From NCBI GenBank assembly GCA_030595715.1, contig JAUVCN010000006.1, forward strand, positions 1 to 48,769: DNA of 48,769 bases, written 5' to 3'. How positions within the stretch are numbered: position 1 is the stretch's first letter; each line of letters starts with the position of its first letter. Below the pieces are notes generated by a model. The model was not told where the DNA came from. It saw only the letters and a program-made list of their open reading frames with translations, and did no database searches. The position numbers and the translations under genes were made by a program. Source of the DNA: Thermoplasmatales archaeon (GTDB taxonomy: Archaea > Thermoplasmatota > Penumbrarchaeia > Penumbrarchaeales > Penumbrarchaeaceae). Below, one piece after another: positions 8,148 to 46,671 of the stretch.

Positions 8148-8230
8148 GGCCTTATTACATAAATGGAGGTAAGTCACCCTACCGGTTCAAGTAAGAATGG
8201 TATCCTATCAATGTCTCCATCGATATCTTT

Positions 8231-8386: not shown

Positions 8387-8417
8387 GATATGGAATGACA
8401 GGTCCTGTTGAAAAGAT

Positions 8418-8933
8418 TTACCAAGGTCCTTCGATCATCTTCAATGCTCTTGAAAACAATCTGGTCGAGCAGTACCAACCTCCGGCGATCATCTGATCCA
8501 ATGCATCTCTTGCTTCTTCCTTTGAGATCGAACCGCATAAGAGGAGTTCCTTGATCACCCAGAGACTTCCTCTATGCTTCACCCCCTCCATGTTGCAAAC
8601 TGCTCTGCCATAGGTCTCATCCATTATTGCGATACCATTCACATCGCAGGCCAACTGGATCACATCGAGATCTCCCCTTGATAGGGACCTGTTTTCCTTC
8701 AATTTCATATGAATTATCCCTTCTTCCACGTCAGAGATCAAAATGATCCCATTTCGAATGAGCTTGTCCACTTGAATGGCATCCAAAGCACCTTTGATAT
8801 TACCTTTGATCACCACTTCCTCGTAGATACTATCGGGAATCGTGAATTTGAAGTCCAGATCACCAATATGTTTCAGTAGATCCCCTCTTGAAAGATATAT
8901 CAGAGGACTTGAATCGAAGATACATTCGATCAT
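8418..8933 (-). CDS. PIN-domain (DUF3368) toxin-type RNase
   Basis: This 171-residue protein shows the PIN N-terminus (IFDSSPLIYLSRGDLL, with the first metal-binding Asp), the VPDS-like segment IPDSIYEEVV, a central acidic motif (RGDLDVIQLA) and the third acidic motif (IAIMDETYGR). PIN proteins are Mg-dependent endoribonucleases; the DUF3368 group is usually paired with a UPF0175 antitoxin, as here. A longer ORF begins at 9011, but the ATG at 8933 lies just after the antitoxin stop and is preceded by GGAGGACC, so translational coupling supports this start. The central motif has Asp where many relatives have Glu, which is conservative. The cellular RNA target cannot be deduced. Confidence 0.8.
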   Translation of the reverse strand: MIECIFDSSPLIYLSRGDLLKHIGDLDFKFTIPDSIYEEVVIKGNIKGALDAIQVDKLIRNGIILISDVEEGIIHMKLKENRSLSRGDLDVIQLACDVNGIAIMDETYGRAVCNMEGVKHRGSLWVIKELLLCGSISKEEARDALDQMIAGGWYCSTRLFSRALKMIEGPW

Positions 8934-8935
8934 TT

Positions 8936-9217
8936 TCAAAGGTCCTCCTCTGCCCAGTCTTCGGAGACCCATATGACATTGGATCTCCGGACCAGATCGG
9001 AGAATTCCCAAATATCCATGCCCGCTATCTCGGCAGCTCTATTGAATGATATCTTCCCCTCTGATAGAAACTCTATTGCTTTTTTTCTCTTCCATTCTTC
9101 CAGTCCTGAAATAAGGAGTTTTCTTAAAGCTCCGGACCTTTCGATGTTCTCTTCTTCGATGAACATCTTCAATTCCTCTTCAAGATCATCAGGGATCCTC
9201 GTGGAGATCACAGACAT
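8936..9217 (-). CDS. UPF0175 / ribbon-helix-helix antitoxin
   Basis: The 93-residue protein starts with a ribbon-helix-helix-like segment (MSVISTRIPDDLEEELKMFI) and ends with the UPF0175 core (KAIEFLSEGKISFNRAAEIA followed by GMDIWEFSDLVRRSNV), which folds as a helix-turn-helix. It is the upstream partner of the PIN gene, as expected for an antitoxin that binds the toxin and represses the promoter. The ORF could extend to 9289, but that extension would run across the palindromic operator and has no ribosome site, so the ATG at 9217 is preferred. A perfect 19-bp palindrome lies 10 bp upstream. Confidence 0.82.
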   Translation of the reverse strand: MSVISTRIPDDLEEELKMFIEEENIERSGALRKLLISGLEEWKRKKAIEFLSEGKISFNRAAEIAGMDIWEFSDLVRRSNVIWVSEDWAEEDL

Positions 9218-9227
9218 GGGAATGATA

Positions 9228-9246
9228 ATGTATACAATGTATACAT
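9228..9246. promoter_or_regulatory. Perfect 19-bp palindromic operator of the UPF0175-PIN module
   Basis: ATGTATACAATGTATACAT has two perfect 9-bp arms around one central base and contains TGTATACA twice. It lies 10 bp upstream of the antitoxin start, where an autorepressor would be expected. It also contains TATA-like sequence, so promoter and operator probably coincide. Confidence 0.65.
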
Positions 9247-9296
9247 AGTTTACGTTCTTAAAGGGCCTGATGAGTTGAAATACATACATTTACGTT
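9241..9296. repeat. Pair of direct repeats, ATACATA..TTTACGTT
   Basis: ATACATAGTTTACGTT at 9241-9256 recurs as ATACATACATTTACGTT at 9280-9296, one base longer. The repeats fill the gap between the divergent antitoxin and surface-protein genes and may be regulatory sites. The spacing is about 40 bp. Confidence 0.4.
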
Positions 9297-9358
9297 TCAA
9301 TTATTATAGAAAAGGGTTTAATTCTTGAATTCACTAGGTGTCAGGGAGCTGAGAGGGA

Positions 9359-12300
9359 ATGAAAAGACCGATGGCAAATTGGTGGGTCCTGATACCCTTT
9401 CTTCTGATGGTAGCGCCAGTCTTGGGGATCTGGACCGGAGGGGTGAGCCCAAAAGAAGAAGATATCAAAGAATTGGTTGACCTGTCACATGGAGTGTATG
9501 ATATCGATCTTCCCTCGTCTTATTGCTTCATAGAGAACGATGGTCAATGGGACCCGGAGATCAGGTTCGTCACAGAAACATCCTTCGGCAGGGCTGCGAT
9601 AACAGATGATGGGATCATTTACGATATTCAACGTGTCTCGCATCACGAAGAAGATCGGTCCGAACCTCTGTTCCCAGGGTTTGAACCGAAAACGGATCTT
9701 GAAATTGAAAGAGATGTGATCAAGGTGTCATTTGAAGGTTCTATCGAACCTGATATCAAAGGATCGGGCCCACTACCTCAAAGATACAACTACTTCATTG
9801 GGAACGATCCGGATAAATGGGTGTCCGGAGCGGTAGCATATGAAAAGGTCATGATGCAGGACATCTACGATGGAATCGATGCAAGATACTACTTCAATGG
9901 AGGGGACCTGAAATACGATCTGATCCTGGACCCATACACCGATCCAGATCAGATAATATTGAAAGTTGAAGGGGCGGATCACTTGGAAGTTGATGACATG
10001 TCTGTTTCATTCGTGAGATCCAATGGTCCACTTCTGCATGATTCATCTTTGAAAGTATTCCACACTGATGATGAAAGCACGATCGAAGCGAATTTTAGAT
10101 TATTGAATGACCATTCATACGGTTTCGACCTTGAAGAATATGATAATTCCAAGAAAATTGTAATTGATCCAGTGATCAGATCTGCATTCCATGGAGGAAA
10201 CGACAGGGATACAATATACGGGATCGATTCGACTTTGGACGGAAGATATATTGTCACGGGATATACGGGATCAACCGATTTTCCAACAACCCCCGGGTCG
10301 TATCAAGAGGAATACCCCAACAAGACTGGATATGACTATCACATATCGATGATCATGGGTTTTGGCAAGGATATGGATTCACTTCAATTTGCAACCTATT
10401 TCGGTGGGAACGGAACGGATTATGGGACTGAAATAAGGTTGGATGATGATGGATCGATATTTGTCTCCGGTTCAACGACATCACCCGATTTCCCATTGAC
10501 ATCAGGGGTATATGATAATGAAACAAATGGCGGATCTGACTGCTATCTGTCCAAGTTTGCAAGTTCGGGATCATCCCTGGAGTTCTCAACATTGCTCGGA
10601 GGAAATCACAATGACAGGCCCTATTCAATGGAGCTCGGACCGGGTGGATGGATCTATCTGATCGGAACAACACGATCAGACGACTTTCCGCAAACCGCTC
10701 TTTACAAAAATCTTTCATATCCCGCAACTTATCAGGCATTTTTCATCTGTCAAATCGATGATCAGGGGAAAATACTGCGGAGATCTCTCGTTTTTAATAG
10801 CACTTTATGGATAGGTGCGAACGATCTGCTCATTCTCGAGAACGGGAATCTATTGATCTCTGCAAATGCAGGCGCTTATGATATTCAGACAACATCTGGA
10901 TGTTTGAATATCACCGGAAATACAACCAATAGATGGAATACCGCAATTTTCATTATGGAAGTCGATCTGGAAAATCATTCGGTAGAGAAATGCGCCCGGA
11001 TCGCAGGAGATGGAAGGGAATTGGGTTACAGCATATCGATGGATGATGAAGGAGATATATGGGTGGGAGGCGTGACGAACTCTCCGGATTTTCCCCTTAC
11101 CGAGGATTGTTTCCAATCCGGTCCCTGTAATGAATATGATCTCTGCATCTTTGAATTGGATGGAAACCTGACCGAACTGAAATATTCCACATATATATCA
11201 GGTGATGGGGATGAACACAGCATAACCATAGATATTGATCCAAAAACAAACAGGATCTATGCCGCGGGGAAATCATACTCGGGCAACCTGTATACAACGG
11301 ACGATGCATTCCAGAAAAGGTCAGCTGGAAGCAGTAACGGCTACCTCTATGTGTTTAATACTACAGATCATTCTCTTGTTCACTCCACATATCTGACCTC
11401 TTCAGGCGGAGAATTCCTGTGGGATATGATCAGTGTTGGAAATTATACGATTGCCGCAGGCGGATGTTCATTCGGGGGGGAATTCCCTCAAGGTTCTTCT
11501 CATATAGAAAACAGAACCGATGAATTCTATTATTCCATTCTTTTCGAATATCAACTTCCCATTCCTCCGGAACCCCCGATCAATTTATCCATTGATCATT
11601 TTGCATCGGAGGATAACTGGCATGTGAACTTGAGCTGGTCTCCTCCCGATGATCCAGGCAATGGGGAGTTGATCGAATACGAAGTGTATTACAAGGAATA
11701 TCTAACAGAAACTGGATCGATCCTTAATGGGTATGATGGAACAACTATCAATAATTGGTATCAATTCGAATTTTCCACACCGGTCTATGCCTGGTCATTT
11801 GCTGTAAAGATGATCACAACATCTGGCACATCGAACTTGAGTGAGATTGCAAGTGTCAGTGATGATATCCTCCCGATTTTCGGAGAGGACCTCTCGTACA
11901 CGAACTTCACCGAAGATGGATATGTGTATTTCGCGATCAATGTGACCGATAATTACAGGGTGAACAATGTTATTCTCTCATATTTCCTGGATGATGGGAT
12001 ATTGTACAATTCATCTCTTACAAGAAGTCAAAACGATCATTATATCGGATCATTGTTCCTTCTGATCAAGAACGGGGATGTCCATTACAGATTCACAGCA
12101 ATGGACAGAGGAGGCAACACAAACTCAACCGAGAACAGGACGATCAAGGCGATCGATGTCATACCTCCCGAGTTAAGAGAAGACCTCACTCCCGCACAGG
12201 TTGAAGTTGGGAATGTTATTCATTTCAAGGTGAACGTGACAGACAATGTCAGGGTAACAGGTGTCGATCTCGAAGTGGTATTCTTCAATACCACATTGAA

Positions 12301-13765
12301 GTTAAATATGACCAATGATGAAGGAGAGAACTGGACCTATGATTATCTTCCACCTGGAAACATCACATCGCTCAACTACATTATCACCATCTTTGACGGG
12401 TACAACAATTCCATTCTCGTTACCGGTATCATTTCCTTGCAGGATAATTTTCCTCCCGAATTCATTGAAGACCTTTCCGATCAGAATATCGTCCTTTACA
12501 ATAAATTCAACGTGGGTGCGGTATTCCAGGACCCGTCGGGAGTTCAAATTGCAAGGGTGGAATACAGACTGTCCACGGAGAGTGCCAACCTGATCCAGGA
12601 CATGACCCTTGTTGATGAGGTTTACAGATACAGTATATACCTGCCATGGTGGGACCAGGATCCCATGGATTGGGATCCGGACATGTCCTTGACCTATCGG
12701 TTCATGGCATGGGACCTCCACGATCGAAGGACAACAACGAATTGGACAACCGTATTTATTGGCGAAAGATCTGATATTGGACCACTCACGTTCCATCATC
12801 TCTCGTTTTGCACCACTGGTGACGTGTTCAGGTTCAGCGTGTGGATCGCCCCCAATAATACCTACGAACGGGTCATCATACATGTATGGACGAATTCCTC
12901 CTCAATTGATGAAGCGGAACAGATGTGGATGGATCCCGACAATCCCTATGATCTACTGACCGACATGGTTGTTCCCATCGATTCGATCGAGACGATCTGG
13001 TACGAGATCATCGTTCAGACCGGATCGAACGAGAATATCACATATGGCCCGTTCTCGCTCCAGGTCCTCGATAACAAACCTCCAACGATCGCTCAGATCA
13101 CCAATACCAGAATAAGGGTTGGAACGAACCTGAAGGTATCCACGGAGATCAATGATAACATCGGGGTATCGGATATCATCTGGGAGATGAACGGATACAC
13201 CTACTCGGGCGACGAATTGAACTGGTATGCGGAGAGGGTGGGAAATTACTGGGTGACGGTGACGGCATATGATGGAGCCGGGAATTCTGGCATCAGACAT
13301 TTCAATATTGAAGTTTATGACACCGATAGTCATCAAGATCCGAACCAGGTAGAAGGCGAAAAAACCGATTATTCTTTATGCATCGTACCTGGAATAATAA
13401 TCATGATATTGATTATTGTTATTGCAAGAGCGATCATGAAAGAAAAGATGAATGGAACACCTGGTAAGCAGAGTATACCATCTCTAAGAGTGGGGCCAGA
13501 GAAAATTCCCAACCCGGACGATGAGTTGATGATCCCTTTCAAAATGGACGAGGGAACCGGGATCAGGATCGATGTGGAAGATGAAGGTCCACCTCCATGG
13601 AAGGATGAGAAAGATGATATCGAAGATGAAGAAGATCTGGAAATTGAAGAGGACGGAGAGGAATTGAAGATCAAGGTCACCGGTGAGGAAGTGATGAAGA
13701 TCAGGTCACCGGCGGAAGGCGACCCCGGACCCCGATTGGCCCCCCCACCCCCGATGGAGGAATGA
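9359..13765 (+). CDS. Giant surface protein: FIENxGQ-type domain, SBBP propeller repeats, FN3, Ig-like modules, TM span, acidic tail
   Basis: The protein has 1,468 residues. It has a signal peptide (MKRPMANWWVLIPFLLMVA), an N-terminal domain beginning YCFIENDGQWDPEIRF that is shared with the protein at 30868, SBBP-like propeller repeats (about 280-720; GYTGSTDFPTT, GTTRSDDFPQT, GVTNSPDFPLT), an FN3 module (about 735-840), four Ig-like modules with VTDNxRV signatures, one membrane helix (about 1338-1359; VPGIIIMILIIVIARAI) and a 109-residue cytosolic tail rich in D, E and P ending LAPPPPMEE. The GAGAGGGA before the ATG is a weak ribosome site. It stands alone, convergent with tmk with only 5 bp between stops. 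Probably an adhesin or envelope scaffold; ligand unknown. Confidence 0.9.
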   Translation: MKRPMANWWVLIPFLLMVAPVLGIWTGGVSPKEEDIKELVDLSHGVYDIDLPSSYCFIENDGQWDPEIRFVTETSFGRAAITDDGIIYDIQRVSHHEEDRSEPLFPGFEPKTDLEIERDVIKVSFEGSIEPDIKGSGPLPQRYNYFIGNDPDKWVSGAVAYEKVMMQDIYDGIDARYYFNGGDLKYDLILDPYTDPDQIILKVEGADHLEVDDMSVSFVRSNGPLLHDSSLKVFHTDDESTIEANFRLLNDHSYGFDLEEYDNSKKIVIDPVIRSAFHGGNDRDTIYGIDSTLDGRYIVTGYTGSTDFPTTPGSYQEEYPNKTGYDYHISMIMGFGKDMDSLQFATYFGGNGTDYGTEIRLDDDGSIFVSGSTTSPDFPLTSGVYDNETNGGSDCYLSKFASSGSSLEFSTLLGGNHNDRPYSMELGPGGWIYLIGTTRSDDFPQTALYKNLSYPATYQAFFICQIDDQGKILRRSLVFNSTLWIGANDLLILENGNLLISANAGAYDIQTTSGCLNITGNTTNRWNTAIFIMEVDLENHSVEKCARIAGDGRELGYSISMDDEGDIWVGGVTNSPDFPLTEDCFQSGPCNEYDLCIFELDGNLTELKYSTYISGDGDEHSITIDIDPKTNRIYAAGKSYSGNLYTTDDAFQKRSAGSSNGYLYVFNTTDHSLVHSTYLTSSGGEFLWDMISVGNYTIAAGGCSFGGEFPQGSSHIENRTDEFYYSILFEYQLPIPPEPPINLSIDHFASEDNWHVNLSWSPPDDPGNGELIEYEVYYKEYLTETGSILNGYDGTTINNWYQFEFSTPVYAWSFAVKMITTSGTSNLSEIASVSDDILPIFGEDLSYTNFTEDGYVYFAINVTDNYRVNNVILSYFLDDGILYNSSLTRSQNDHYIGSLFLLIKNGDVHYRFTAMDRGGNTNSTENRTIKAIDVIPPELREDLTPAQVEVGNVIHFKVNVTDNVRVTGVDLEVVFFNTTLKLNMTNDEGENWTYDYLPPGNITSLNYIITIFDGYNNSILVTGIISLQDNFPPEFIEDLSDQNIVLYNKFNVGAVFQDPSGVQIARVEYRLSTESANLIQDMTLVDEVYRYSIYLPWWDQDPMDWDPDMSLTYRFMAWDLHDRRTTTNWTTVFIGERSDIGPLTFHHLSFCTTGDVFRFSVWIAPNNTYERVIIHVWTNSSSIDEAEQMWMDPDNPYDLLTDMVVPIDSIETIWYEIIVQTGSNENITYGPFSLQVLDNKPPTIAQITNTRIRVGTNLKVSTEINDNIGVSDIIWEMNGYTYSGDELNWYAERVGNYWVTVTAYDGAGNSGIRHFNIEVYDTDSHQDPNQVEGEKTDYSLCIVPGIIIMILIIVIARAIMKEKMNGTPGKQSIPSLRVGPEKIPNPDDELMIPFKMDEGTGIRIDVEDEGPPPWKDEKDDIEDEEDLEIEEDGEELKIKVTGEEVMKIRSPAEGDPGPRLAPPPPMEE

Positions 13766-30000: not shown

Positions 30001-30875
30001 TGCCAGTTAATGATGCACCATTGCTCAAGCTGCCGGGTAACCTTTCGGTAAAACAGGGAGAGGGGCTTTTGATAAACATCATATCTTCCGATCCGGCCGA
30101 TGGAGATGAACTATCCATCTCCTCCAATATCTTAGATGTGATCCCGGGAACGGTCATAGGAGAAAATGTCCTGCAGTATCCAAATGGCTCCGTTTTCCTG
30201 AAGACGGACAATCGGATGATAGGATCCCATGAGATCGTTTTCAATGTATCGGATGGAACAGTTAGCGTGGAAGGAAGGATAACGATCATGATCGAGAATG
30301 TGAACGATCCCCCCACCAGGCCCCAGGTCATGACCGATCCGTCAGAGTTGATCAACATCGGTCCTTTGTCCTATGTTCTCAAGGGCAACTCCACCGATCC
30401 CGATATCCGGTGGGGAGACATCCTGACCTATACCTGGACATCTTCTATCATGGGTGAATTGGGTGAGGGAGATGAGATCGAAGTGGTCCTTTCTCCTGGT
30501 ATTCACCTTATCACGTTAGAGGTCATGGACCTGGAAGGACTTGTCAATTATACAACGATCGAGATAGTTATCACCGAGGATGTGGACAATAAGAAAGAGG
30601 TTATGAGAACCAACATCTTGTTGATCATACTGGGGATAACCGGTTTACTGATCGGAATACTGATCGGTGGATCGATCCTTTTCCTTTCAAAAAGGAGGAA
30701 GGACGAAGGTGAAAAAGAGCCTGATACCCCGCAGAATGATGGAGAGGAGAAGAAGGTGGAAAGAACAACTCCTCAAAAGGAGAATAGCGGAGTAGTGGAG
30801 GAGAAGGTGGAAGGAACAGTTCCCGGAAAGGAAAGTGGAGGGGTGGAAAACAGAGGAGGTGAAAAGCATGAATAA
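27048..30875 (+). CDS. Giant surface protein: BNR/sialidase-like N-terminal region, cadherin/PKD-like modules, TM span, repetitive acidic tail
   Basis: About 1,275 residues. A signal peptide (PILLLLVLSIFSIQIDGVEF) leads into a beta-rich region with Asp-box-like turns (MSQNGGLSFG, ISFDGGSTFNRGY, RSVNGGHF), suggesting a BNR/sialidase-type propeller but without identified catalytic residues. Ig/PKD and cadherin-like modules follow (VLPVNDAPLLKL, IENVNDPPTRP), then one membrane helix (NILLIILGITGLLIGILIGG) and a 60-residue charged tail containing a 17-residue tandem duplication. The start may be TTG 27048 (right distance from GGAGTGAT at 27036), ATG 27057 or GTG 27039; I prefer TTG. The next gene starts inside its last codons. 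Confidence 0.88.
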   Translation: MPLMSRLYSLPILLLLVLSIFSIQIDGVEFLDSTVVPSSTRSGSGDPETHLFLDGSNEGSFSHLENISSGDGNTFSMEKNGYENLLSIPSSPLSTRDVQGRRTIVTYENVTYFTYMTVDLENQTFSFFFIAYRELEDTFEDPMLIHTFNGSTEGYITMAAGNDELYFLMSPVRSLSSDSGAYVKVVPIDQWYLAHLFDISRLDENGDVSTGIAIVATSTGACAFWRMDSAENSQRSVYDNGAWSAGANVRTNVGVMDVVVGEIDGKENVIFVFAKEGHDHVNVTMSQNGGLSFGINQYAGFTDKGITSVSAACKAGMVHISAVRSSTNEIFHFRSVNGGHFITSGVIATYSSPAPGKIEMSHLAIERDNVLIVYQDGNGISGVISFDGGSTFNRGYDHSSSVVFSPSIQIDKDYLGYHDGTDLIILRYVLEDNALMVSDPITPMGIWSWESMGFDVQGIDHGTTISFRILDRPGVQLFPSSGWEQITSHGMGQIAGYDLDHLIQVEGVWSEPGTAIDSIYFEIMIDRNIDDDPVISMIGVDHTTIFPVVESTARGFHVHSIDNMTLTSKGIELDTHRPLGSIILGPLSRETIWADVMTVRLHSFSNKILLKVSILDMNMDPIPSYGIDDCDPFNQISDPEQVRWNGRHFGSIPETIASVYIEFKLSKTEPTADPYIGSVSLTYSNPPAISQVIPPSNIVIRGDHVGFSLLLNDAEDGQEELFLIVQSSLADSDDWILYDHINGVLWNGSGWDVFFSPPADTEVGTYIFRAWITDLSGNLSGPLDLPFNVEVLNARPVPPHAHIDPEVVRTDSRVSVKIDTIGTDLELDDISLEHHFSVFRNGEPFTDEQMIIESLNLTIPEGIVKKGDIWRIEIMAFDGMDESDPCTLEFTVVNTAPMVDDPPSVISIDEDLPLIVLPGPLSWFKDIDGDTLDLSFEVLQGVDVELAGDTFTITPWDDHTGNSILRVTAYDGSVNTTLQVDLEVLPVNDAPLLKLPGNLSVKQGEGLLINIISSDPADGDELSISSNILDVIPGTVIGENVLQYPNGSVFLKTDNRMIGSHEIVFNVSDGTVSVEGRITIMIENVNDPPTRPQVMTDPSELINIGPLSYVLKGNSTDPDIRWGDILTYTWTSSIMGELGEGDEIEVVLSPGIHLITLEVMDLEGLVNYTTIEIVITEDVDNKKEVMRTNILLIILGITGLLIGILIGGSILFLSKRRKDEGEKEPDTPQNDGEEKKVERTTPQKENSGVVEEKVEGTVPGKESGGVENRGGEKHE
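30753..30854 (+). repeat. 51-bp tandem duplication in the cytosolic tail
   Basis: Two copies of a 51-bp unit starting at AAGGTGG (30753 and 30804) encode KVERTTPQKENSGVVEE and KVEGTVPGKESGGVENR. The period is a multiple of three, so the frame is kept. Confidence 0.6.
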
Positions 30876-33800
30876 GAAGAACATTCCATTTTCGGTCTTC
30901 CTGATCGTTGGAATATTATTCCCGCTATCAGCATTCCCGGTATCTGAAAACGTGAACGAGCACATTGAGATGACCAATAGCCCGGTACTATCTACGGAAA
31001 GCGCTGGCCAGGACCTTGAAGGATACACAGAGTTCTTCATCTCCAACAACGGACAGATCGGAAATGATGACATATCATTCTATACCACAGACGGACCTGT
31101 CAAAACAGGGTTCAGAGAGAACGGCATCACAATCGCTGTTGAAACGGAAGAAAAGGGTTTCTCATATGAGGTCGAGTTCATGGATGGTGGATCATCCGGC
31201 CCATCGGGTATGGAAGAACTCGATCATCATACGAATTATTTCATTGGTTCTGACCCGGACGGGTGGCATACGGACATTGTGAACTTCGAGAGCATCATCT
31301 ATCACGATGTTTGGGACAGGATAGATATCGTGTACAGGATCGTTCAGGGCAGACTGAAATATGACATCTTGGTCCATCCGGGGGGAGACGTAGGTGATGT
31401 GATGTTCAGGTTCGTGGATATCCATCCTGAGCTGATCGATGGTGAGCTTCTGGTCCCAACACCTGTTGGCGATGTATTGGATGATGCACCCTTCACCTAT
31501 CAGTCGGTAAATGAGATCCCTTCAGAATGGCATCAGATATCGGATAGCATTTTTGGCTTCAATGTTGACCAGTATGATCCCGACATGGAACTTGTGATAG
31601 ATCCTGGCCTCAGCTTCTCCTCATTTGCCGGTGGGTCCAGCCTTGATAAGGGAAGGGGGATCGTGGTCGATTCCAGTGGTTATTCCTATGTCACAGGATA
31701 TACTGCCTCCAGTACATTTCCAACAACAACGGGAGCTTACGATACGGTTTACGGTGGTGGCAACAATGGTGATGTATTCGCCATGAAGGTCAACGTATCC
31801 GGTGATCGTTTGATCTATTCCACCTATCTCGGTGGAGGTGGAAACGATTACGGAATGAGCATTGATCTGGACTCATCCGGGAATGCATATATCGGCGGTC
31901 AGACCTACTCAAATAACTTTCCGACTATGAATGCTTACGATGGCTCCTATTTCAGAAATGGAGATGCTTTTGTTACCAAACTTTCACCTGCCGGCAATTC
32001 CCTCGTATATTCCACATACATCGGGGGGTGGACATCGGATGCTATCAACGGGATCAAGGTGAATTCCGGAGGAAACGCTTTTGTGACCGGAACCACCGGT
32101 TATGTCGGTTGGTCGCAGTACAGATACCCCACCACATCCGGTGCTTATGACAGAGGCCATAACGGCAATGATGATGTGTTCGTAACAAAATTATCAACAA
32201 ACGGTCGAAGCCTTGATTATTCAACATTCATAGGAGGAGGAAATGATGATGTTGGATACGGGATCGAATTGGATAGCAACGGGAATGCCTACATTGTGGG
32301 TCGAACGGTGTCCTCCGATTTCCCGACAACATCGGGTGCATATGATCAAACATATGGAGGAAGCGGCGATGGCTTCATGGTGAAGCTTGATTCATCGGGA
32401 GGGTCACTTTCCTATTCCACTTTCATCGGAGGAGGTGGATCCGACGCAGGACTCGGTATTGTTCTCGACTCATCGGATCGGGCATATATCACAGGATATA
32501 CCGGTTCCAACAACTTCCCCACAACATCCGGTGCATATGACACCACCTACAATGGGAACACAGATTCATTCATCACGATGCTTTCATCGGACGGTTCTAC
32601 ATTGATGAACTCGACCTATGTGGGAGGTTCAGGATACGACAGTGGAAAAGCTATCGCATTGGGTGCGGATGGCATGGTCCACATCACTGGCTACACGACC
32701 TCATCCAACTATCCGACCACATCCGATGCATTTTCCACATCAAGGACATGGGGCAATGAGGTTTTTGTTTCGAAGATGGACATTGGCGGAGCAGTGATGA
32801 AATATTCTACTTATATTGGTGGGTCCAACAACGAGGAGGCCAGTGGAATTCAAGTCGATAGTGACGGATTCATCTACATTACCGGGGAGACGGATTCGAG
32901 AGATTTCCCAACATCCTTTTCCGGATTCGACATATCGTATAATTCAAATGACGATGTCTTCATCACAAAGTTCTATCCTGCGGATTTCTCACCGTCCACA
33001 CTGACATCGGAATCGGGATATTTCTTTGTGAACCTTTCCTGGCAGGGATCGGCTCAGGAGTTCTTCGATGATTTCGGCATCATAGGTTACCGCATATACA
33101 GGAGATCGGGATCAAGTGCACTTGTTCCAATTGCGGAAGTAGGGAATGTAACGGAGTACCAAGATATCATTGATATTTTTATCAGCAGTGAATATCACTA
33201 CCGCGTCACAGCGCTGTTCAATACGATCGGGGAATCGAAATTCTCAAATATGGTTTCTGAAACTCCCGACGTTACGCCAAGGCCCTTCGATCCCGTTGCC
33301 GATGCAGGAGATATGTTTGTCAACCTCACCTGGCAGACGATCCCATCTCAGTATTTTTCTATGTTCGACATCACATATTCGATTTTCCGGGGTCTGGACC
33401 CGAACTACCTTTTAAGGATCGCTGACGTTGGACCGGTCGATTGGTATAATGACACGGATATTGCCGGAGAACCAAGGACCTACTATTATGGTGTGACCTA
33501 TGTGATCAGAGGTATCGGTGAATCCAATATGACCAACCTGGTGCAGGCGAAGCCGAACACTCCTCCTTCCGCTCCTTCCAATGTCTCCACGACTGCCGGG
33601 GACCTGCAGACCGAGATCAGGTGGAATGCCCCCGATGATAACGGCGGATATCCACTCGATTCCTATCTTGTATATCGTGGAATATCCCCCGGGACCATGG
33701 ATCCCTTCATGACCATCCCATCCACAAATACGAACCTTATAGATAATGGGGTTGAAGCGGGGATCACATATCATTACCAGATCACGGCAATGAATGATAT

Positions 33801-36603
33801 CGGTCATTCCTTCAGGTCCCGTACCGCATCCATGAATGGTCAGACCGTCCCATCGGAACCTCAGGACCTGACACTCATCGAAGGTGATGGAAAGGTCGAT
33901 ATCCGGTGGAACGAACCCGCAGATATGTGGTCGATCCCGATCATGGGATATTCATTGAAGATAGATCCCGGGACCGGCTCCAGGGCCGAAGAGATCTCTC
34001 TGGGCCCTGAGATCCATTCCTATACCCATGATGTTCCAAATGGCGAGGTCTTCTTCTATTCCGTAAGCGCGTCGAATGTTCACGGTGAGGGGGATGACTC
34101 CGGACCTCTCGAAGGGAGGGGAAGAGGAGTTCCCGGTGAACCTATAGATCCTTCTATCTCGATAGGTGATAGGAACGTGATCCTCGATTGGGATGGATTT
34201 ACGTCAGATGGCGGAGAACCCTTGACATATGTGAAGGTCTACAGGGGCAATGATATTCAAAATAGACAACACATCGCATCATTGCCTCCGAATACAACAT
34301 CATTTACACTATCTGGTCTTACCAACGGTGAGACCTATTACTTCTGGATCTCGGGTGTCAACCCGATAGGCGAGGGGATCGCTTCTCTACCACTACCGGC
34401 CACTCCCGGTCGAGCTCCGGGAATGATAACTGGCCTGACATTGCTTCCCGGACTTGGTAATGTGGTGGTCGAATGGTCCCCCCCTGCCGACACCGGAGGC
34501 AGGGACCTGCTTGAATATGTGGTATACAGAGGTTCGAGCATATGGACCCTGAAGGAGGTGTTCAGGAACCTATCCAGTGGAACCTCCTTCATTGATGGTG
34601 ACCGGATACAGGGACAGAATTACGTTTACGCGATATCAGCGATCAATAATTTCGGAGAAGGCCCAAGATCCGAACCGCAGGAAGCTATACCCTATGGTCG
34701 ACCGTCAGCTCCAAGGATGATCTCACATTCCGTTGGTTCTACTTCTGTGGAACTGGAATGGACCGTGCCGGACCATGACGGAGGATCCGAGATCACGGGT
34801 TATCTGGTGGAATACAGGTCCGAATTGGATACCGAATGGGACACGATGGAGTTCGCTGGAACCTCTGGCATTGTCACGGACCTCAGAAAGGGCGATGAAT
34901 ACACTTTCAGGGTCAAAGCCAGGAATTTCATTGCGGATGGGCTTCCCTCGGACGATCTTGTAACCCATGTGGGTCTAATCCCGGAACCGCCAACATCGGT
35001 CAGCCTTACATCCGGCGTGGGCCAGATCAGGGTAGAATGGAGCCATAGGCCACCGGGCAGTCTTCCGATAATCGGTTACAGATTGTTCATTGCGGTCAAT
35101 GGCGGCCAATGGAACTACGTTGATGAGGTTGGAAAGGATCGTGATACATATGTATTTGAAAACCTGGTCACTGATTCTACATATACGGTCTCTATATCCA
35201 GTATAAATGAGATCGGAGAGGGTGAAAGATCTGCGAACAGGACACTTACACTCAAGGGGATCCCCTCTCCACCGGAGATCATATGGATCGAGGACCAGGG
35301 GCCGGAGGGTGTAATTTTACGGTGGCTACCCCCTGTGGACCAGGGAGGGGATGAGGTCATAGAATATCGGATCTTCCGCGGAGCTTCAATGGCATCTCTA
35401 ACTGTATTGAAGACCGTCACATCACCTGCTTTGGACGATACGAACCTTGGTATCGGGAAGAGCTACTTCTACTCGATCGCCTCGATCAACGAACAAGGAT
35501 CGAGCGCACAAAGCCGGATCATCGAAGCCTCCACACGTTCTGTCCCATCACCTCCGAACGACCTTCGTGCGGAAGCGACCTCTGACGAGGTTCTGTTGAA
35601 ATGGGATGCTCCTTCATCTGATGGAGGTTTTGAACTTACGGGATATCTTGTTTATCGATCTCTTGATGGAGGCGTTCCAGAACTCATCTCGGAGCTTGGA
35701 TCGGATTCCAGGGGATTCAAGGACAGATCGGTCTCATCAGGATCATATACGTATGATATTGTCCCTGTGAACTCCCTTGGGAAAGGTGAATCATCCAGCA
35801 TAGATGCTGATGTGCCAGGAAGGACATTGTGGTCCATCATGTCACTTGGTATCTCCCTTCTGTTGCCATTGCTGATATTCCTTGCGATAGCCTTCCTCCC
35901 CGGATATCTCAAAAAGAGAAAGGAGAGAAAAGAGAAGGAGGAAGAGATGAGAAGGGTGAAAGAAGCGGAGATCCGGGAACAGCAGATGCTCGAATTGGAT
36001 GCCAGAAGACGATCCACTCTTCCACCGGGGAGAGGCCATGTTCCGGGTCTTGCACCGGCTCATGGGGGGGTTGCACATGGATTGAACCAGCTGCCTCCGG
36101 TTTCATCCAGGGTCGATGAGACCAAAACAGGTGAAGGATACATCAGACCTGCAGACATGAAGAAGAAGAAGACGGACAGGATGAAGGTCCTGAGGGCCGA
36201 TGGCAAGTCAGTTGAGCAGCGTGAGGCTGAGAAGCATCTTTCCGAGATCAAATCCAATGGGAATGCTACAAATGATAAATATCATAAGGAGAGGCATGAG
36301 GCCCTGAAGAAGGAAGCTGCGTCCACGTTCACAGGACAACAAACCGTCGGACCGGAGCCTCAAAAGGCAGAAGAAGGAAGCATGGAAGGCTTCATGGCAG
36401 CTCCGACCTCAGCTACCCCCGTTGAACCTATCAATGAAGGACATGTTGAAAATGAAGAAGGGCCTGACAGGATCAAGGGAACCGAACCTCCCGAAGAGGA
36501 TATCCCCAATTGGGCCGGTGACGAGATCCCTATTCAGGAACCACCAACAGAAGAGGTCGAGGAGATGGAAGAGATCGAGGAATTGGACGAACTTGAGGGA
36601 TGA
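30868..36603 (+). CDS. Giant surface protein: N-terminal FIxNxGQ domain, seven SBBP repeats, ten FN3 modules, TM span, long K/E-rich cytosolic tail
   Basis: About 1,911 residues, the largest gene here. A signal peptide (FSVFLIVGILFPLSAFPVSE) is followed by the N-terminal domain shared with the protein at 9359 (FFISNNGQIGNDDISFYTTD), seven SBBP blades with GYTxSxxFPTT signatures (31610-32990), ten FN3 modules (33000-35800) each recognisable by W-x-x-P-x-D-x-G-G, a membrane helix (LGISLLLPLLIFLAIAFLPG) and a tail of about 240 residues, first K/E-rich (KKRKERKEKEEEMRRVKEAE) and then acidic. The ATG at 30868 is preceded by GGAGGTGAAAAGC and overlaps the upstream stop by 8 nt: translational coupling. 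Probable adhesin with a cytosolic coupling segment. Confidence 0.92.
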   Translation: MNKKNIPFSVFLIVGILFPLSAFPVSENVNEHIEMTNSPVLSTESAGQDLEGYTEFFISNNGQIGNDDISFYTTDGPVKTGFRENGITIAVETEEKGFSYEVEFMDGGSSGPSGMEELDHHTNYFIGSDPDGWHTDIVNFESIIYHDVWDRIDIVYRIVQGRLKYDILVHPGGDVGDVMFRFVDIHPELIDGELLVPTPVGDVLDDAPFTYQSVNEIPSEWHQISDSIFGFNVDQYDPDMELVIDPGLSFSSFAGGSSLDKGRGIVVDSSGYSYVTGYTASSTFPTTTGAYDTVYGGGNNGDVFAMKVNVSGDRLIYSTYLGGGGNDYGMSIDLDSSGNAYIGGQTYSNNFPTMNAYDGSYFRNGDAFVTKLSPAGNSLVYSTYIGGWTSDAINGIKVNSGGNAFVTGTTGYVGWSQYRYPTTSGAYDRGHNGNDDVFVTKLSTNGRSLDYSTFIGGGNDDVGYGIELDSNGNAYIVGRTVSSDFPTTSGAYDQTYGGSGDGFMVKLDSSGGSLSYSTFIGGGGSDAGLGIVLDSSDRAYITGYTGSNNFPTTSGAYDTTYNGNTDSFITMLSSDGSTLMNSTYVGGSGYDSGKAIALGADGMVHITGYTTSSNYPTTSDAFSTSRTWGNEVFVSKMDIGGAVMKYSTYIGGSNNEEASGIQVDSDGFIYITGETDSRDFPTSFSGFDISYNSNDDVFITKFYPADFSPSTLTSESGYFFVNLSWQGSAQEFFDDFGIIGYRIYRRSGSSALVPIAEVGNVTEYQDIIDIFISSEYHYRVTALFNTIGESKFSNMVSETPDVTPRPFDPVADAGDMFVNLTWQTIPSQYFSMFDITYSIFRGLDPNYLLRIADVGPVDWYNDTDIAGEPRTYYYGVTYVIRGIGESNMTNLVQAKPNTPPSAPSNVSTTAGDLQTEIRWNAPDDNGGYPLDSYLVYRGISPGTMDPFMTIPSTNTNLIDNGVEAGITYHYQITAMNDIGHSFRSRTASMNGQTVPSEPQDLTLIEGDGKVDIRWNEPADMWSIPIMGYSLKIDPGTGSRAEEISLGPEIHSYTHDVPNGEVFFYSVSASNVHGEGDDSGPLEGRGRGVPGEPIDPSISIGDRNVILDWDGFTSDGGEPLTYVKVYRGNDIQNRQHIASLPPNTTSFTLSGLTNGETYYFWISGVNPIGEGIASLPLPATPGRAPGMITGLTLLPGLGNVVVEWSPPADTGGRDLLEYVVYRGSSIWTLKEVFRNLSSGTSFIDGDRIQGQNYVYAISAINNFGEGPRSEPQEAIPYGRPSAPRMISHSVGSTSVELEWTVPDHDGGSEITGYLVEYRSELDTEWDTMEFAGTSGIVTDLRKGDEYTFRVKARNFIADGLPSDDLVTHVGLIPEPPTSVSLTSGVGQIRVEWSHRPPGSLPIIGYRLFIAVNGGQWNYVDEVGKDRDTYVFENLVTDSTYTVSISSINEIGEGERSANRTLTLKGIPSPPEIIWIEDQGPEGVILRWLPPVDQGGDEVIEYRIFRGASMASLTVLKTVTSPALDDTNLGIGKSYFYSIASINEQGSSAQSRIIEASTRSVPSPPNDLRAEATSDEVLLKWDAPSSDGGFELTGYLVYRSLDGGVPELISELGSDSRGFKDRSVSSGSYTYDIVPVNSLGKGESSSIDADVPGRTLWSIMSLGISLLLPLLIFLAIAFLPGYLKKRKERKEKEEEMRRVKEAEIREQQMLELDARRRSTLPPGRGHVPGLAPAHGGVAHGLNQLPPVSSRVDETKTGEGYIRPADMKKKKTDRMKVLRADGKSVEQREAEKHLSEIKSNGNATNDKYHKERHEALKKEAASTFTGQQTVGPEPQKAEEGSMEGFMAAPTSATPVEPINEGHVENEEGPDRIKGTEPPEEDIPNWAGDEIPIQEPPTEEVEEMEEIEELDELEG
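31610..32990 (+). repeat. Seven SBBP (propeller blade) repeats
   Basis: Seven copies of a 60-70-residue unit, each with YSTYIGG, D-S-x-G-N-A-Y-I-x-G and FPTT-x-x-A-Y-D landmarks. Seven blades equals a complete propeller, so the copy number is probably structural. Confidence 0.75.
33000..35800 (+). repeat. Ten tandem fibronectin type III modules
   Basis: Ten units of about 90 residues, starting with P-x-x-P-x-x-(V/L) and holding a conserved W (VNLTWQTIP, EIRWNAPDDNGG, VVEWSPPADTGG, LLKWDAPSSDGG and others). The DNA copies have diverged. Confidence 0.75.
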
Positions 36604-41387: not shown

Positions 41388-42146
41388 ATGTCCGATCCAT
41401 TCCTCCTTGTTATTGTGGCGCTTGTGGGTTTCATTGGCGGAGGCATCCTAATCGGAATGGGCATATCCAGGCTAAGGAAATGGAAATTGATCGAGAAAAC
41501 CCCAACGAGCAAGGTTGCGGATATCCAGAATGGCCTTGTGGAGCTGGATGGTGTGATAAGGCCCATCACCGGGAAGATGATGACATCCCCTGTCACGGGC
41601 ACTCCATGTATCAGTTATACTGTCAAGGTCCAGGAATATGATAGTGGAGGCAGGAATCGATCCGGAAAGTGGAGAACGATACACAAAGAGAACCGGGGGG
41701 GACCTTTCCTCCTGCAAGATGAGACCGGCCTCGTCAAGGTGGACCCCGCAAGAGCGAAGATGGACCAGTTGAACACAATGGAGAGCACACAGGGTCTATT
41801 CTCCGACCTGGGTCCCGGTGCATGTAATTTCATTGAATCCAGGGGGATCAAGGATAAGGGGTTCTTCGGTCTGATGAAGAGGAATTTGAAGGTGAAGGAG
41901 TCTGTTGTACCCGTGAATCTCCATATCTATGCTCTGGGAACAGCAGGGATAATCGTTCTGGAAGAGGAACTTGAAAAAGACCCGAGAGTGAGTGTGTTCA
42001 CCGTGAGAAATGAGGGGAAGATGATTCTTTCTTACAAGAGTGAGAAGGAAACCTCCTCGCACTTGAAGAACTATGGGTTTGTATTGATCATACTCGGGAG
42101 TATCTTTCTTCTCGGAGGGTTCTCGTTAATGATCGTTATTCTATGA
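41388..42146 (+). CDS. GIDE-domain (MULAN/BAM-type) membrane protein
   Basis: The 252-residue protein has an N-terminal membrane helix (FLLVIVALVGFIGGGILIGM), a domain resembling GIDE (about 45-190: VELDGVIRPITGKMMTSPVT then TPCISYTVKVQEYDSGG, and LLQDETGLVKVDPA), and a C-terminal hydrophobic hairpin (GFVLIILGSIFLLGGFSLMI). The P-V-T-G-x-x-C-x-x-Y segment is the family signature. In eukaryotes this domain occurs in the mitochondrial E3 ligase MULAN; no RING follows it here. Its biochemical role in prokaryotes is not known. AGGTGATGAT gives a good ribosome site. It ends 1 bp from the convergent beta-helix gene. Confidence 0.75.
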   Translation: MSDPFLLVIVALVGFIGGGILIGMGISRLRKWKLIEKTPTSKVADIQNGLVELDGVIRPITGKMMTSPVTGTPCISYTVKVQEYDSGGRNRSGKWRTIHKENRGGPFLLQDETGLVKVDPARAKMDQLNTMESTQGLFSDLGPGACNFIESRGIKDKGFFGLMKRNLKVKESVVPVNLHIYALGTAGIIVLEEELEKDPRVSVFTVRNEGKMILSYKSEKETSSHLKNYGFVLIILGSIFLLGGFSLMIVIL

Positions 42147-42147: not shown

Positions 42148-45100
42148 CTATCGATCGCCGAAGTGGTTCAACATCCTGTCATGGACCTCTTTTTTCTCCG
42201 GATCAAGAAGGATCGATTTGGCTGCATTTATCTCCCTCATCTTCTCTTCATGGTCCAGGACCTTATTCGAATGAAGGTTCCTGTCCGGATGATATCTTGA
42301 TGCTAGGGACCTGTAAGCTTTCTTGATCTCGGGTTCCCTGGCATTCTTCTTCACTTCAAGGATATCATAGCAGTTGATCCCTTTCGGTGAGCGGGAGATC
42401 CCGAATCCTGACATTATCTCCTTCATGGTATTGTAATCACTATGATCGAGGCCTTTCTTCTTCCTGATCGTGATAACACCAATTATTGATGCTATTATCA
42501 AGATCACTGTTGCAATGACCATGATCATTATGATGGATAGCCGAACTTCAACATCTTCCTTGGCCAATGTAATATTTCCAATATCGTTTTTCTCTCCGTT
42601 GGTAAGTATAAATTGCTTTTCTATCCTTTCATAACCTTTTTTTGATACGACAAGTGTTGCCAAACCTTCTTCACCCGTTATCGAGAACCTTCCATCAAGA
42701 TCACTTCGAGTTGAATGGGTATCAATGAAAACATCAGCATTTTCTATGGGCTTTCCTTTATTATCTATCAACCGGCCCATAATAATTCCTTGTCCTATCG
42801 TACTGAATGAAAAATCAGGTTTAAGAAGAAAATTTCCTGCCAGGTCCGTGGCAAGAACTTCTACTTTATAGGTCGTGGACCGCTCCCAGTCAACATTTGA
42901 CCTTATAAACAGTCTGTTTCCATCCATGTCAAATGAAATGGGAATATTATTCACTGTGATATCGTCAACCAATACTTCCTCCGAAAAAATGATCTCGATG
43001 TCGGCATCAAGTTCAACATCAGAACCGTTGGGATCGATATATTGCATGAAAGGTTTTGTCGTGTCCACCATGATATTTATCTTTTCTTCAACAAGGTTTC
43101 CTGCCATGTCCATTCCACGAAAATGTAGAAGATGAGGTCCCTCTTCCAGGTGCTTGACATATGGTGAAGATAGGATAAATGATAGTTCCCCCTCATCAAT
43201 TCTGATATCCATAAAATCCATCGGACTACCTGTTCCATCTGCATACCAGTTGGTTTCCATCATATTCCGATTGAAGTAGATCCCATCCTCTATGTCGATC
43301 TCCAGGATAGGGATCTTGGAATCCTTGATCAAGGTGATGGGTCTTGTACCTTCATTTCCAGCAAGATCTATTACCGATACTATGAATGAATATTCGCCAT
43401 CGATGGCTAATTCGCATCTGAAATTCGTGTCAGTAATAACATCAGTTCTACCTGAGTATTCGATATGGAACTCATTTACCAGGCCGGATAATGAATCCTC
43501 TGCCATCCAGGATATGTCAAATATGCCTGAAGAAGAATATATGATCCCAGTTTGATCAAATTCAATGATCGGAGCTGTCCTATCAATGGTGAAACGAACT
43601 TCTTCGGTTGAGGTCATCCCAAGAGAGTTTACAGCTGTCAATTTGATCATATGATGGCCTTCATCTAGATACTCAAGTGATATCATCGTATCATTCAGGT
43701 TCAGATCGATCGGTTCTGAACCATCGATGGATATTGTGGTCGAGACAATATCAGACTCCATTTCCTTTATTTTCCAGGAGAGGTAGGGATCGATTCGTTT
43801 GATATACTCTCGATCTTCCGGTTTAAAAATGGTAATAATGGGGGCAGTTGAATCAGGGACCCCTTTTACCGGAAGTGATAACAGACCCTCTCCCAGATCA
43901 TTATATGCCGAGACAATGAAACTGTACATCGCCCCATCTTCAAGATCCGGGACGATCGTTCCATTCATGTCATCCAGTGTATATGCCAACAAATGTGCCC
44001 CTCTGTTCGCGCTGATATAGAGCTTGTATCCTTTGATGGCTCCCCCATATATCATCTCAGGTTCGTTCCAGTATAAGGTTACTTTTTGAGGTCCAGGTTC
44101 GATGGAAGTGATCTCTGGAGTTTTAAAAGTTGGAATGGGGGTTCTGACAAGAGGATACTTGTCAGAGATCCCAATTCCATGGAAAAGATATCTGTGATCT
44201 ACAATCCCATCAAAATCCCTGTCGGGAGTTGTGTATTCACCGTAATGATTTCCCTTTTGACCGGTGACATATACATTGAGATTGGAATCTTCCTTTATCT
44301 GGGCAGTTTCCGGATCGTAGGATCCTCCCTTCGCTCCATTGTTATTGATGAACGCATTCCAGAAGATGTTGAGGTTCCTGTTTGTCGATGAACTCTCGAT
44401 CGCATGACCTTCACATTTGGTTACTATGTTGTTGGTGATCACTCCATTGGAACATCTTGAAAAGGATAAACCGATTGAGCATTCTGTGAAATTATTTCCA
44501 TAAAGGTTGAGATCGGAGGAATCGTCAACATAGATCCCGATTCCACATTCGATCATTGCCGAGTCCTTGATGGTCAAGTTATCATCACGATACGAGTAGA
44601 TCCCGTAACTCAGATCTTCAAAGATCTGATCCTCCACTGTTAGATCCGATGAAGATCTGGTGTATACTCCTGATTCAGTGTTATGTATTGTATTCTCTCT
44701 GATCATTACATCGGAACAATAGCGTAAATAAAAGGCCCAATCCCCTTCAAATATCTCGTTGCCTTCAATGACAATATTATCACAATGATACACATCAAAG
44801 GGTCGAACAAAACGTGTTACTCCAATTTTATTATCAAGTATCTGCAGACCTTGGCAATAATCCAACTCAATATTACGAGAAAATTTATTATTTTCTATCG
44901 TCGTGTTAACATTATGATATAAAAAGAGATCATCATATTCATTATTTTTGAATTCACAATCTCGTATGGTTACGTTTCTTGATCTAATGATATAATGTCC
45001 ATTTTCCGAGTTGTTGTGGGCTGAAGATCCAGTAATTGTTAGATCGTCACAATCCCATGCATGGAGGCCGTTATTCCCATCACCAGAACCGGCGATCTCA

Positions 45101-46671
45101 ACATTTTTTAATATAATATTTTTACATTTGATCATTGGAAGACCCGATTCATTATTGAAGAACCAATCCTCAAGCGTGATATTCGTACAATTTACAAAGA
45201 AATATTGAGACCCTTCAGGGATCGGGCCGTGTTCGAGGTCCTTTCCGTTGAAGTATTGGATGGGTTTGCCGTTGAGTGTGTTATTCGTAGGTATGGTCTG
45301 TTCGATAATACCCAGATAATCCCGATAATCCGCGTAGTAACTGCCAATTTCCAAATGGAATCCATCACCTATCAGCCTGTTATTGTAATATGAGTTGAAA
45401 TAGGACCTCTTATCTGAATTGATCGTCCAGATGGATGGTAATGATCTGAACTCAGAATCAATAAATATATTCTGAATAGATTGATAAAGTGACATGGCTT
45501 CTGAACTCTCACTTTCAAAACTACAGTTGACAAATCTCAATTCATTACTATTTTCAATTGATACAGCTATCTCTTTTTCGGAATGTATCTTGCTTGAGAA
45601 AAAATCGCATTCTTCTGTCCTATCTATGTAGACAGTGGGCTGATCATAACTGGATGATATATTGACATTCCAGAATTGGAGATGTGATGATAACCGAAGG
45701 CGAAGGCCTCGGTTGGCTCCGGGCATTTCAATTAGTCTGAAAAAACCATTTTTCACTTCATTGCAATATATACCCCCATCAGAATATCCATTCTTCCCAG
45801 AAGTTACATTCTCGATGATCAGACCATCAATATCATCAAGATAAATATCATCATATTCAGTCCCGGAAAATGAAGCATTCTTAATGATCAGATCATCTGT
45901 GTCACTTATGGTGATACTGTGATATTCATTATCAATGAAAGTCACACCATTGATCGTGAGATCATCATTCCCATCTACACGAATGGATCTGTAGCATTTA
46001 TTGAAAACACAGTTGGATACTTCCACGTACTGGCTGTCATATATTATCAATCCATCGTGTGATAAAAAAGTACAGTTGTTGATATCAAATCTTTTCACAT
46101 TGTCCATATATATTCCATCATCTTCATTTTCAAAGAAACAACCATCTATGCTTATGTCATGATTTGAAAATGTAAGTGCAGATATTCCATCCACAGTGGA
46201 GAAATTGCATTCAAGGACCTCGATATCTTTGACATTGTTCATATAGATGCCAAAATCCCCTTCTTCAAATGAAATATTCCTGATAGTAATATTCGAAGAA
46301 TTAAGGAGGTAAAGACAATAATCCGTATAATATAATCTTGAGGTGTTGTATAGATGACCATTGCGAAAAATGATGTGTGAGCTCACATTTCCTATGAAAA
46401 GTCCGAAAGTTGATCCTTCCGCATCTATCTCAATATCTTTGATCATGTATGGATTTAATACTGTTCCATTTCCATCCCATCCCTCATCATCGATCAGATC
46501 TTCAAGGTCTGTCTCGTTGTTCAGGATTATTGGATCATAAGAGGTCAAGGTCCCACCGGGTGAATGGTCATTTGACCCATTCACCTCACTGGCATCAAGG
46601 TCAAAAGATTGAAACTGGAGAACGGCCATTGAAAAAATGATCATCGTTGCGATGGCGATATTTTTCCTCAT
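42148..46671 (-). CDS. Giant surface protein: parallel beta-helix, FN3/Ig modules, TM span and cytosolic J-domain
   Basis: About 1,507 residues. After a signal peptide (MRKNIAIATMIIFSMAVLQF) comes a long right-handed beta-helix of NosD/PbH1 type (about 70-830; units such as NNSNITIRNISFEEGDFGIY), an FN3 module, three Ig-like modules (WMAEDSLSG, DLAGN), a Big_5 module, a carboxypeptidase-regulatory-like module (GRLIDNKGKPIENADVFIDT), one membrane helix (IIMIMVIATVILIIASIIGV) and, in the cytosol, a 77-residue J-domain (NCYDILEVKKNAREPEIKKA, then ASRYHPDRN with intact HPD). J-domains stimulate Hsp70 ATPase. The frame stays open to 46776, but the signal peptide begins at ATG 46671. An extracellular beta-helix joined to a J-domain is very unusual. 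Confidence 0.9.
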   Translation of the reverse strand: MRKNIAIATMIIFSMAVLQFQSFDLDASEVNGSNDHSPGGTLTSYDPIILNNETDLEDLIDDEGWDGNGTVLNPYMIKDIEIDAEGSTFGLFIGNVSSHIIFRNGHLYNTSRLYYTDYCLYLLNSSNITIRNISFEEGDFGIYMNNVKDIEVLECNFSTVDGISALTFSNHDISIDGCFFENEDDGIYMDNVKRFDINNCTFLSHDGLIIYDSQYVEVSNCVFNKCYRSIRVDGNDDLTINGVTFIDNEYHSITISDTDDLIIKNASFSGTEYDDIYLDDIDGLIIENVTSGKNGYSDGGIYCNEVKNGFFRLIEMPGANRGLRLRLSSHLQFWNVNISSSYDQPTVYIDRTEECDFFSSKIHSEKEIAVSIENSNELRFVNCSFESESSEAMSLYQSIQNIFIDSEFRSLPSIWTINSDKRSYFNSYYNNRLIGDGFHLEIGSYYADYRDYLGIIEQTIPTNNTLNGKPIQYFNGKDLEHGPIPEGSQYFFVNCTNITLEDWFFNNESGLPMIKCKNIILKNVEIAGSGDGNNGLHAWDCDDLTITGSSAHNNSENGHYIIRSRNVTIRDCEFKNNEYDDLFLYHNVNTTIENNKFSRNIELDYCQGLQILDNKIGVTRFVRPFDVYHCDNIVIEGNEIFEGDWAFYLRYCSDVMIRENTIHNTESGVYTRSSSDLTVEDQIFEDLSYGIYSYRDDNLTIKDSAMIECGIGIYVDDSSDLNLYGNNFTECSIGLSFSRCSNGVITNNIVTKCEGHAIESSSTNRNLNIFWNAFINNNGAKGGSYDPETAQIKEDSNLNVYVTGQKGNHYGEYTTPDRDFDGIVDHRYLFHGIGISDKYPLVRTPIPTFKTPEITSIEPGPQKVTLYWNEPEMIYGGAIKGYKLYISANRGAHLLAYTLDDMNGTIVPDLEDGAMYSFIVSAYNDLGEGLLSLPVKGVPDSTAPIITIFKPEDREYIKRIDPYLSWKIKEMESDIVSTTISIDGSEPIDLNLNDTMISLEYLDEGHHMIKLTAVNSLGMTSTEEVRFTIDRTAPIIEFDQTGIIYSSSGIFDISWMAEDSLSGLVNEFHIEYSGRTDVITDTNFRCELAIDGEYSFIVSVIDLAGNEGTRPITLIKDSKIPILEIDIEDGIYFNRNMMETNWYADGTGSPMDFMDIRIDEGELSFILSSPYVKHLEEGPHLLHFRGMDMAGNLVEEKINIMVDTTKPFMQYIDPNGSDVELDADIEIIFSEEVLVDDITVNNIPISFDMDGNRLFIRSNVDWERSTTYKVEVLATDLAGNFLLKPDFSFSTIGQGIIMGRLIDNKGKPIENADVFIDTHSTRSDLDGRFSITGEEGLATLVVSKKGYERIEKQFILTNGEKNDIGNITLAKEDVEVRLSIIMIMVIATVILIIASIIGVITIRKKKGLDHSDYNTMKEIMSGFGISRSPKGINCYDILEVKKNAREPEIKKAYRSLASRYHPDRNLHSNKVLDHEEKMREINAAKSILLDPEKKEVHDRMLNHFGDR

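Follow-up and report, generated by a model that had tools for sequence, protein, structure and literature searches.

A J-domain tail on giant archaeal surface proteins: a candidate membrane-tethered Hsp70 co-chaperone

Introduction

Why should a giant archaeal surface protein end in a J-domain, the module that docks on the interdomain linker of DnaK (PMC8215388)? A preliminary description of a 48,769-nt stretch of DNA from a Thermoplasmatales archaeon (hereafter, the window) had placed such a domain at the cytosolic end of a minus-strand beta-helix protein, and proposed that it brings DnaK to the translocon-exit side during export of the ectodomain or couples an outside signal to chaperone activity. 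Membrane J-proteins are already known, as small anchored co-chaperones. In the case described here, by contrast, the surface proteins appear to carry Hsp70 recruitment as part of their own structure, on several ectodomains and in one lineage within the sample tested.

Results

The window J-protein gene maps to 42148..46671 (-) and encodes 1,507 aa from a likely ATG start at 46671 to the stop codon at 42148-42150; an alternative in-frame ATG upstream, at 46776, would yield 1,542 aa. The product begins MRKNIAIATMIIFSM..., which is signal-peptide-like, and its probable N-terminal signal peptide (residues ~1-27, MRKNIAIATMIIFSMAVLQFQSFDLDA; 46591..46671 (-)) was recognised from the sequence and a Kyte-Doolittle hydrophobic stretch, with an inferred cleavage site. 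Pfam delineates a right-handed beta-helix of Beta_helix/NosD repeats (residues ~133-814; 44230..46275 (-); PF13229, E 2.8e-51; PF05048, E 5.6e-42), a fibronectin type III domain (residues ~856-936; 43864..44106 (-); PF00041, E 1e-7), bacterial Ig-like domains of the Big_13 and Big_5 types (residues ~967-1291; 42799..43773 (-)) and a membrane-proximal CarboxypepD_reg (transthyretin-like) beta-sandwich (residues ~1297-1369; 42565..42783 (-); PF13620, E 4e-10), whose strands also appear in the structural model described below. Rfam and tRNA scans of the 48,769-nt window were empty; the archaeal origin of the genome is supported by an SRP RNA of archaeal type that scored over threshold.

The J-domain itself spans residues 1433-1498 (42178..42375 (-)), as delimited by Pfam, a profile search, an AlphaFold model and structure matching. 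Positions 42151-42381 (-) translate to GINCYDILEVKKNAREPEIKKAYRSLASRYHPDRN...HDRMLNHFGDR, and the HPD motif (residues 1461-1463) falls at exactly 42283..42291 (-), intact as first described. Pfam DnaJ (PF00226) matched over its full model (1-63/63) with E=4.9e-18 and 65.4 bits against a cut-off of 27.8, and a genome-wide J-domain search scored 42178-42375 (-) at 71.9 bits. In an AlphaFold model of the final 238 residues (mean pLDDT 82.8; pTM 0.41, which makes the relative placement of domains unreliable), a beta-sandwich leads into a long helix, after which come a short juxtamembrane helix and the helices of the J-domain. These last occupy model residues 177-191 and 202-220, with block pLDDT of 87-93, and the modelled J part superimposes on the solved J-domain 6rzy_A with a TMt of 0.91 and an rmsd of 0.9 A; 4j7z matches as well, and the CarboxypepD_reg part matches the folds of 3mn8 and 5aq0. 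The tail is a full J-domain, and the DnaJ score together with independent copies elsewhere excludes a chance match. Beyond the J-domain only 9 residues remain, and Pfam found none of the features of a class A/B DnaJ there, be it a G/F region, zinc fingers or client-binding beta-sandwich domains; by exclusion, the sequence assigns the protein to the predicted class C J-proteins.

Topology signals place this domain inside the cell. A strongly hydrophobic segment at residues 1380-1398 (42478..42534 (-)), also a predicted helix in the model, forms the single candidate transmembrane helix and is followed by RKKK; basic residues directly after the helix likewise occur in the other single-pass copies described below. 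N-glycosylation sequons number 27 in the ectodomain and none in the tail, with 16 expected by shuffling and a maximum of 27 in 500 shuffles. Since basic residues follow the helix and the sequons are confined to the ectodomain, the window J-protein is read as a type I membrane protein with a signal peptide, an outside ectodomain, one helix and a predicted cytosolic J-domain, which upholds the orientation originally proposed. The J-domain does lie behind the membrane helix as had been stated, but not just behind it: a juxtamembrane segment of ~35 residues with a predicted short helix intervenes (residues 1399-1432; 42376..42477 (-)), and Pfam recognised no domain between helix and J-domain.

We then considered whether the tail serves export. 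Three proteins of the window genome, L100 (1,467 aa), L101 (1,518 aa) and L103 (1,162 aa), resemble the window J-protein in their beta-helix, Ig-like and CarboxypepD domains and in their one C-terminal membrane helix, but differ in having cytosolic tails of 13-20 residues devoid of a J-domain. Short tails are also found on most CarboxypepD-type surface proteins retrieved by the search. Because these same-genome proteins lack it, the J-tail is optional and is not needed for export of such ectodomains in general, contrary to what had been suggested. The notion that it brings DnaK to the translocon-exit side is not supported by the geometry either: that side faces the exterior, where neither DnaK nor the J-domain is located, and the ribosome reaches the J-domain last. 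The export idea is thus disfavoured.

The arrangement, which had appeared singular, is one of several. Whole-genome search of the window genome revealed ten J-domain loci: two DnaJs beside two DnaKs, two small soluble proteins, one multipass protein and five large one-helix proteins with a C-terminal J-domain (surface-J proteins: the window copy, L014, L015, L018 and L019; contig ends cut the 5' ends of L014 and L018, so that their signal peptides are not visible). Across 12 genomes of the class (G000-G011), 24 loci combine a large ectodomain, one membrane helix and a C-terminal J-domain, a count that includes three truncated fragments from class genomes other than the window genome (L040, L041 and L047), the last of which is a J part only, placed in the set because the tree shows it to be nearly identical to L050 and L052. 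Every one of the 24 keeps its HPD. By Pfam, L050, from another genus, repeats the complete window-like order of beta-helix, Ig-like, CarboxypepD, TM and J. Over ~1,000 residues the window J-protein can be aligned with L014 and with one protein of L030 at ~27% identity, and its group A relatives share just 23-30% identity with it overall. Elsewhere the J-tail is joined to an ectodomain of Ig/PKD type or to one that has no clear match, and also to ordinary proteins of 625-800 aa; in a 2,502-aa protein of G010 the J-domain lies near the C-terminus, with ~176 residues beyond HPD. In L030, two surface-J genes stand in tandem (3674-5596(-) and 5556-10166(-)), their open frames overlapping by ~40 bases.

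Class genomes at least 90% complete carry 5-12 J-domain loci each, versus mostly 0-3 elsewhere in the sampled phylum. Among the profile matches listed, to about E=7e-20, for 390 phylum genomes (12 of the class, ~378 others), no clear surface-J case came from the non-class genomes; their listed matches were of about ordinary DnaJ length, save one 688-aa open frame (G247). Similarly, a Pfam DnaJ search of a second sample of 45 non-class phylum genomes found no J-domain in a frame >515 aa. The window J-protein is one member of a group of membrane J-proteins that has expanded within a single archaeal class. The preliminary description knew of no archaeal surface adhesin with this layout, and the searched literature, which left most subscription journals out of reach, likewise yielded no description of such a fusion.

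We next compared the J-domains residue by residue, with positions numbered after an E. coli DnaJ reference typed in manually. Those helix II positions that make basic and aromatic contacts in E. coli DnaJ are conserved among the 23 aligned surface copies: Tyr25 in 22/23, Lys26 as Arg/Lys in 22/23 and Arg22 as Arg/Lys in 19/23. In helix III, on the other hand, three positions set the copies apart from E. coli DnaJ, namely 51 (Asn) and 54 (Lys/Arg) in 23/23 copies and 47 (Met) in 19/23, so that the interaction with the partner could be altered. The window J-protein (helix III REINAAKSILL) fits both the Asn51 plus Lys/Arg54 signature and the placement of J C-terminal to one membrane helix; Asn and Lys at 51/54 also occur in the multipass and one soluble J-protein of its genome. 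With a profile of the set, trained on 28 of the scored sequences, members reached 79-113 bits and most canonical class DnaJs 55-71 bits. A clean score gap between surface-J proteins and DnaJs was considered and dropped, as the DnaJ-like locus G009:C106 reached 84 bits and DnaJs outside the class up to 86; given this overlap and the self-training of the profile, the signature is the better marker. As to the origin of surface-anchored J-domains, the best tree (60 rows, only 70 columns) shows 8 label changes, a pattern that fits one origin or several. In the pairs that allowed an estimate, J-domain dN/dS was 0.04-0.23, comparable to or below that of the ectodomain; the J-domain is under purifying selection in orthologue pairs, the window J-protein being too distant from its nearest relatives for such an estimate.

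The candidate partner is present in duplicate: the window genome encodes two complete DnaKs, each adjoining its own DnaJ, and the second carries the interdomain linker VLLLDVTPLSLG, the docking site for J-domains. On contig C73, DnaK gives a two-piece match; a frame split was rejected, because many genomes show such a match in two pieces inside a single open frame, and it marks a deletion relative to the Pfam model instead of an error. We also dropped the idea that surface-J proteins need a second DnaK, since G002 shows one DnaK place and yet has surface-J proteins. Most genomes of the phylum sample have either both J-domain and DnaK or neither; four family f6 genomes (G013, G032, G040 and G045) have neither, and G020 and G036 have one without the other, which may reflect incompleteness.

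Gene neighbourhoods differ among surface-J sets, which does not indicate one common client. The window J gene has no operon partner, as it is flanked by a convergent GIDE-like gene on one side and a divergent surface-protein gene on the other; the former (41388-42146 (+); GIDE, PF12483) encodes a membrane protein and ends 1 base from the J gene. An orthologous set (L015, L031, L037, L054 and L025) lies directly upstream of a giant type-IV-pilin-like protein, with gaps of 47-149 bp, and this pair recurs in five genomes of two families. The giant has an archaeal pilin-type N-terminus, SEAxGTxLL, with Pilin_N at E=8e-4 in L015, below the curated cut-off. The L015 cluster (L015:2-15344) comprises genes for an FG-GAP surface protein, a coiled-coil zinc-ribbon protein, the surface-J protein and the pilin-like giant (up to 2,191 aa); it is kept in part in L031, L037, L054, L058 and L025, and its last two members also in another family. 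In a third set, Fic/DOC genes lie near surface-J genes on the same strand at L014:6382-7527(-), L030:2215-3381(-) and L027:1-651(-); as L030 and L027 come from one genus, the adjacency covers two genera. HPFxDGNGR is found in both complete Fic copies and a FICD-like inhibitory TTAIEG in 3/3. With six Fic loci in G000 and two in G003, chance adjacency is unlikely, although the sample is small. In animals, the Hsp70 BiP is modified by FICD (PMC6826200), and by analogy a Fic-DnaK link at surface-J loci may be conjectured. An FKBP-type isomerase lipoprotein gene (FKBP_C match; L033:1914-2789(-)) stands beside a multipass membrane J-protein gene, and such neighbours of multipass J-proteins recur in L028, L035, L036 and L044.

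Discussion

Together, these data lead us to favour, by a modest measure, the view that the window J-protein is a membrane-tethered class C J-protein that would recruit and activate DnaK on the cytosolic side of one specific surface protein. The signal peptide and the one helix would place the beta-helix/Ig-like ectodomain outside and the juxtamembrane helix and J-domain inside; the J-domain would bind and activate the cell's DnaK directly under the membrane; and DnaK would act there on whatever borders the cytosolic face of the surface protein, be it proteins in complex with it, an assembly of cytoskeletal or pilus type, or a signalling complex. In this scheme the J-domain would supply location and not general folding, with the ectodomain deciding where the module sits. 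From its sequence we infer that the protein may indeed stimulate DnaK on a cytosolic client; regulation of the J-domain by extracellular binding is likewise putative. A tentative extension, which we deem possible, is that the J-domain is an interchangeable cytosolic tail on many surface proteins, addressing Hsp70 to particular surface structures (the type-IV-pilin-like giant included), and in one branch is perhaps controlled by a nearby Fic enzyme, much as BiP is by FICD in the ER.

The nearest functional parallel is DjlA of E. coli, which requires both its J-domain and DnaK to alter how membrane signalling proteins interact, its J-domain activity weakening such an interaction (PMC11709261). 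DjlA and the window J-protein both have a single membrane helix and a cytosolic C-terminal J-domain, and DnaK delivery to membrane complexes has been proposed for DjlA (PMC11709261). However, DjlA extends only a short N-terminus into the periplasm and has a TerB-like domain ahead of its J-domain, whereas the window J-protein has a signal peptide, a ~1,350-residue ectodomain and a ~35-residue linker without Pfam match, no TerB-like domain being recognised by Pfam between helix and J-domain. It is thus best read, by analogy, as a protein that may work like DjlA without being a DjlA member. The E. coli J-proteins DjlB and DjlC, which act with HscC, are anchored in the membrane too, and their supposed role is to position an Hsp70 there (PMC8215388), but they are tail-anchored and lack an ectodomain, whereas the window J-domain is the C-terminal tail of an exported protein. 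Eukaryotic ER Sec63 is a membrane J-protein too, and solved Sec63 chains appeared among the profile-search matches. Its J-domain stands on the far (lumenal) side and helps to pull precursors through the translocon. The window J-domain is predicted on the near side, in the cytosol according to the topology signals, and the protein itself is the cargo; Pfam found no Sec63-type domain in it.

Other explanations were weighed against DnaK recruitment to a surface protein. The nearest defensible form of the export idea is that the J-tail recruits DnaK to its own unexported or stalled precursor, for unfolded export or degradation. J-domains can be late additions that give existing processes chaperone power (PMC8215388), the ectodomains are huge, and multipass J-proteins of the class adjoin the FKBP-type isomerase gene; even so, beta-helix proteins of the same size dispense with the tail in the same genome, synthesis of the J-domain comes last, and the tails occur on ordinary 625-800 aa proteins too, which renders this reading unlikely. 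Alternatively, ligand binding or clustering of the ectodomain might expose or cluster J-domains and so turn DnaK on locally, with the juxtamembrane helix as a switch. The type I receptor-like layout and the predicted juxtamembrane helix would suit this second idea of the preliminary description, as does the linker, which in three out of four pairs of close surface proteins is better conserved (86-95% identity) than the ectodomain; a single helix, however, need not pass on a signal, and the linker is just 34% identical in the fourth pair, and we regard such signalling as rather improbable.

The subfamily-specific helix III changes at 47, 51 and 54 could instead mean that the J-domain has become an adaptor for another cytosolic protein and no longer works with DnaK. 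To this we give little credence, for HPD persists in all copies and a basic helix II in nearly all despite strong divergence, and the four f6 genomes lack both J-domain and DnaK, as expected if the two are partners. Finally, an assembly artefact or chance fusion can be practically discarded: the genome is in 197 contigs and no positive sign of one was found, whereas L050 repeats the domain order and copies that can be aligned occur in other genera and on other contigs, all independent of this assembly point, which disposes of the misassembly that the preliminary description had named as its own refutation.

That some two dozen such proteins with differing ectodomains occur in this genome and its close relatives suggests that the lineage has its own means of stationing Hsp70 at particular surface proteins. 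It also raises a testable question about the role of Hsp70 at the prokaryotic cell surface, for which sister proteins that share an ectodomain type, some bearing the J-tail and others lacking it, form a natural control set. Other surface proteins of the window genome end in other ways. One (L098/L105; L105:440-3496(-)) has a cytosolic tail of repeated zinc ribbons. Within the window, a giant surface protein of 1,481 aa (379-4824 (-)) has a cytosolic tail that closes with a RING-like zinc motif (Prok-RING_1 at E=2e-4, which is below cut-off), so that a protein of this kind bears another module on its cytosolic side. Two further giant single-pass surface proteins are encoded at 9359-13765 (+), with matches to DUF7948 and beta-propeller repeats, and at 30835-36603 (+), with a long charged cytosolic tail at its end.
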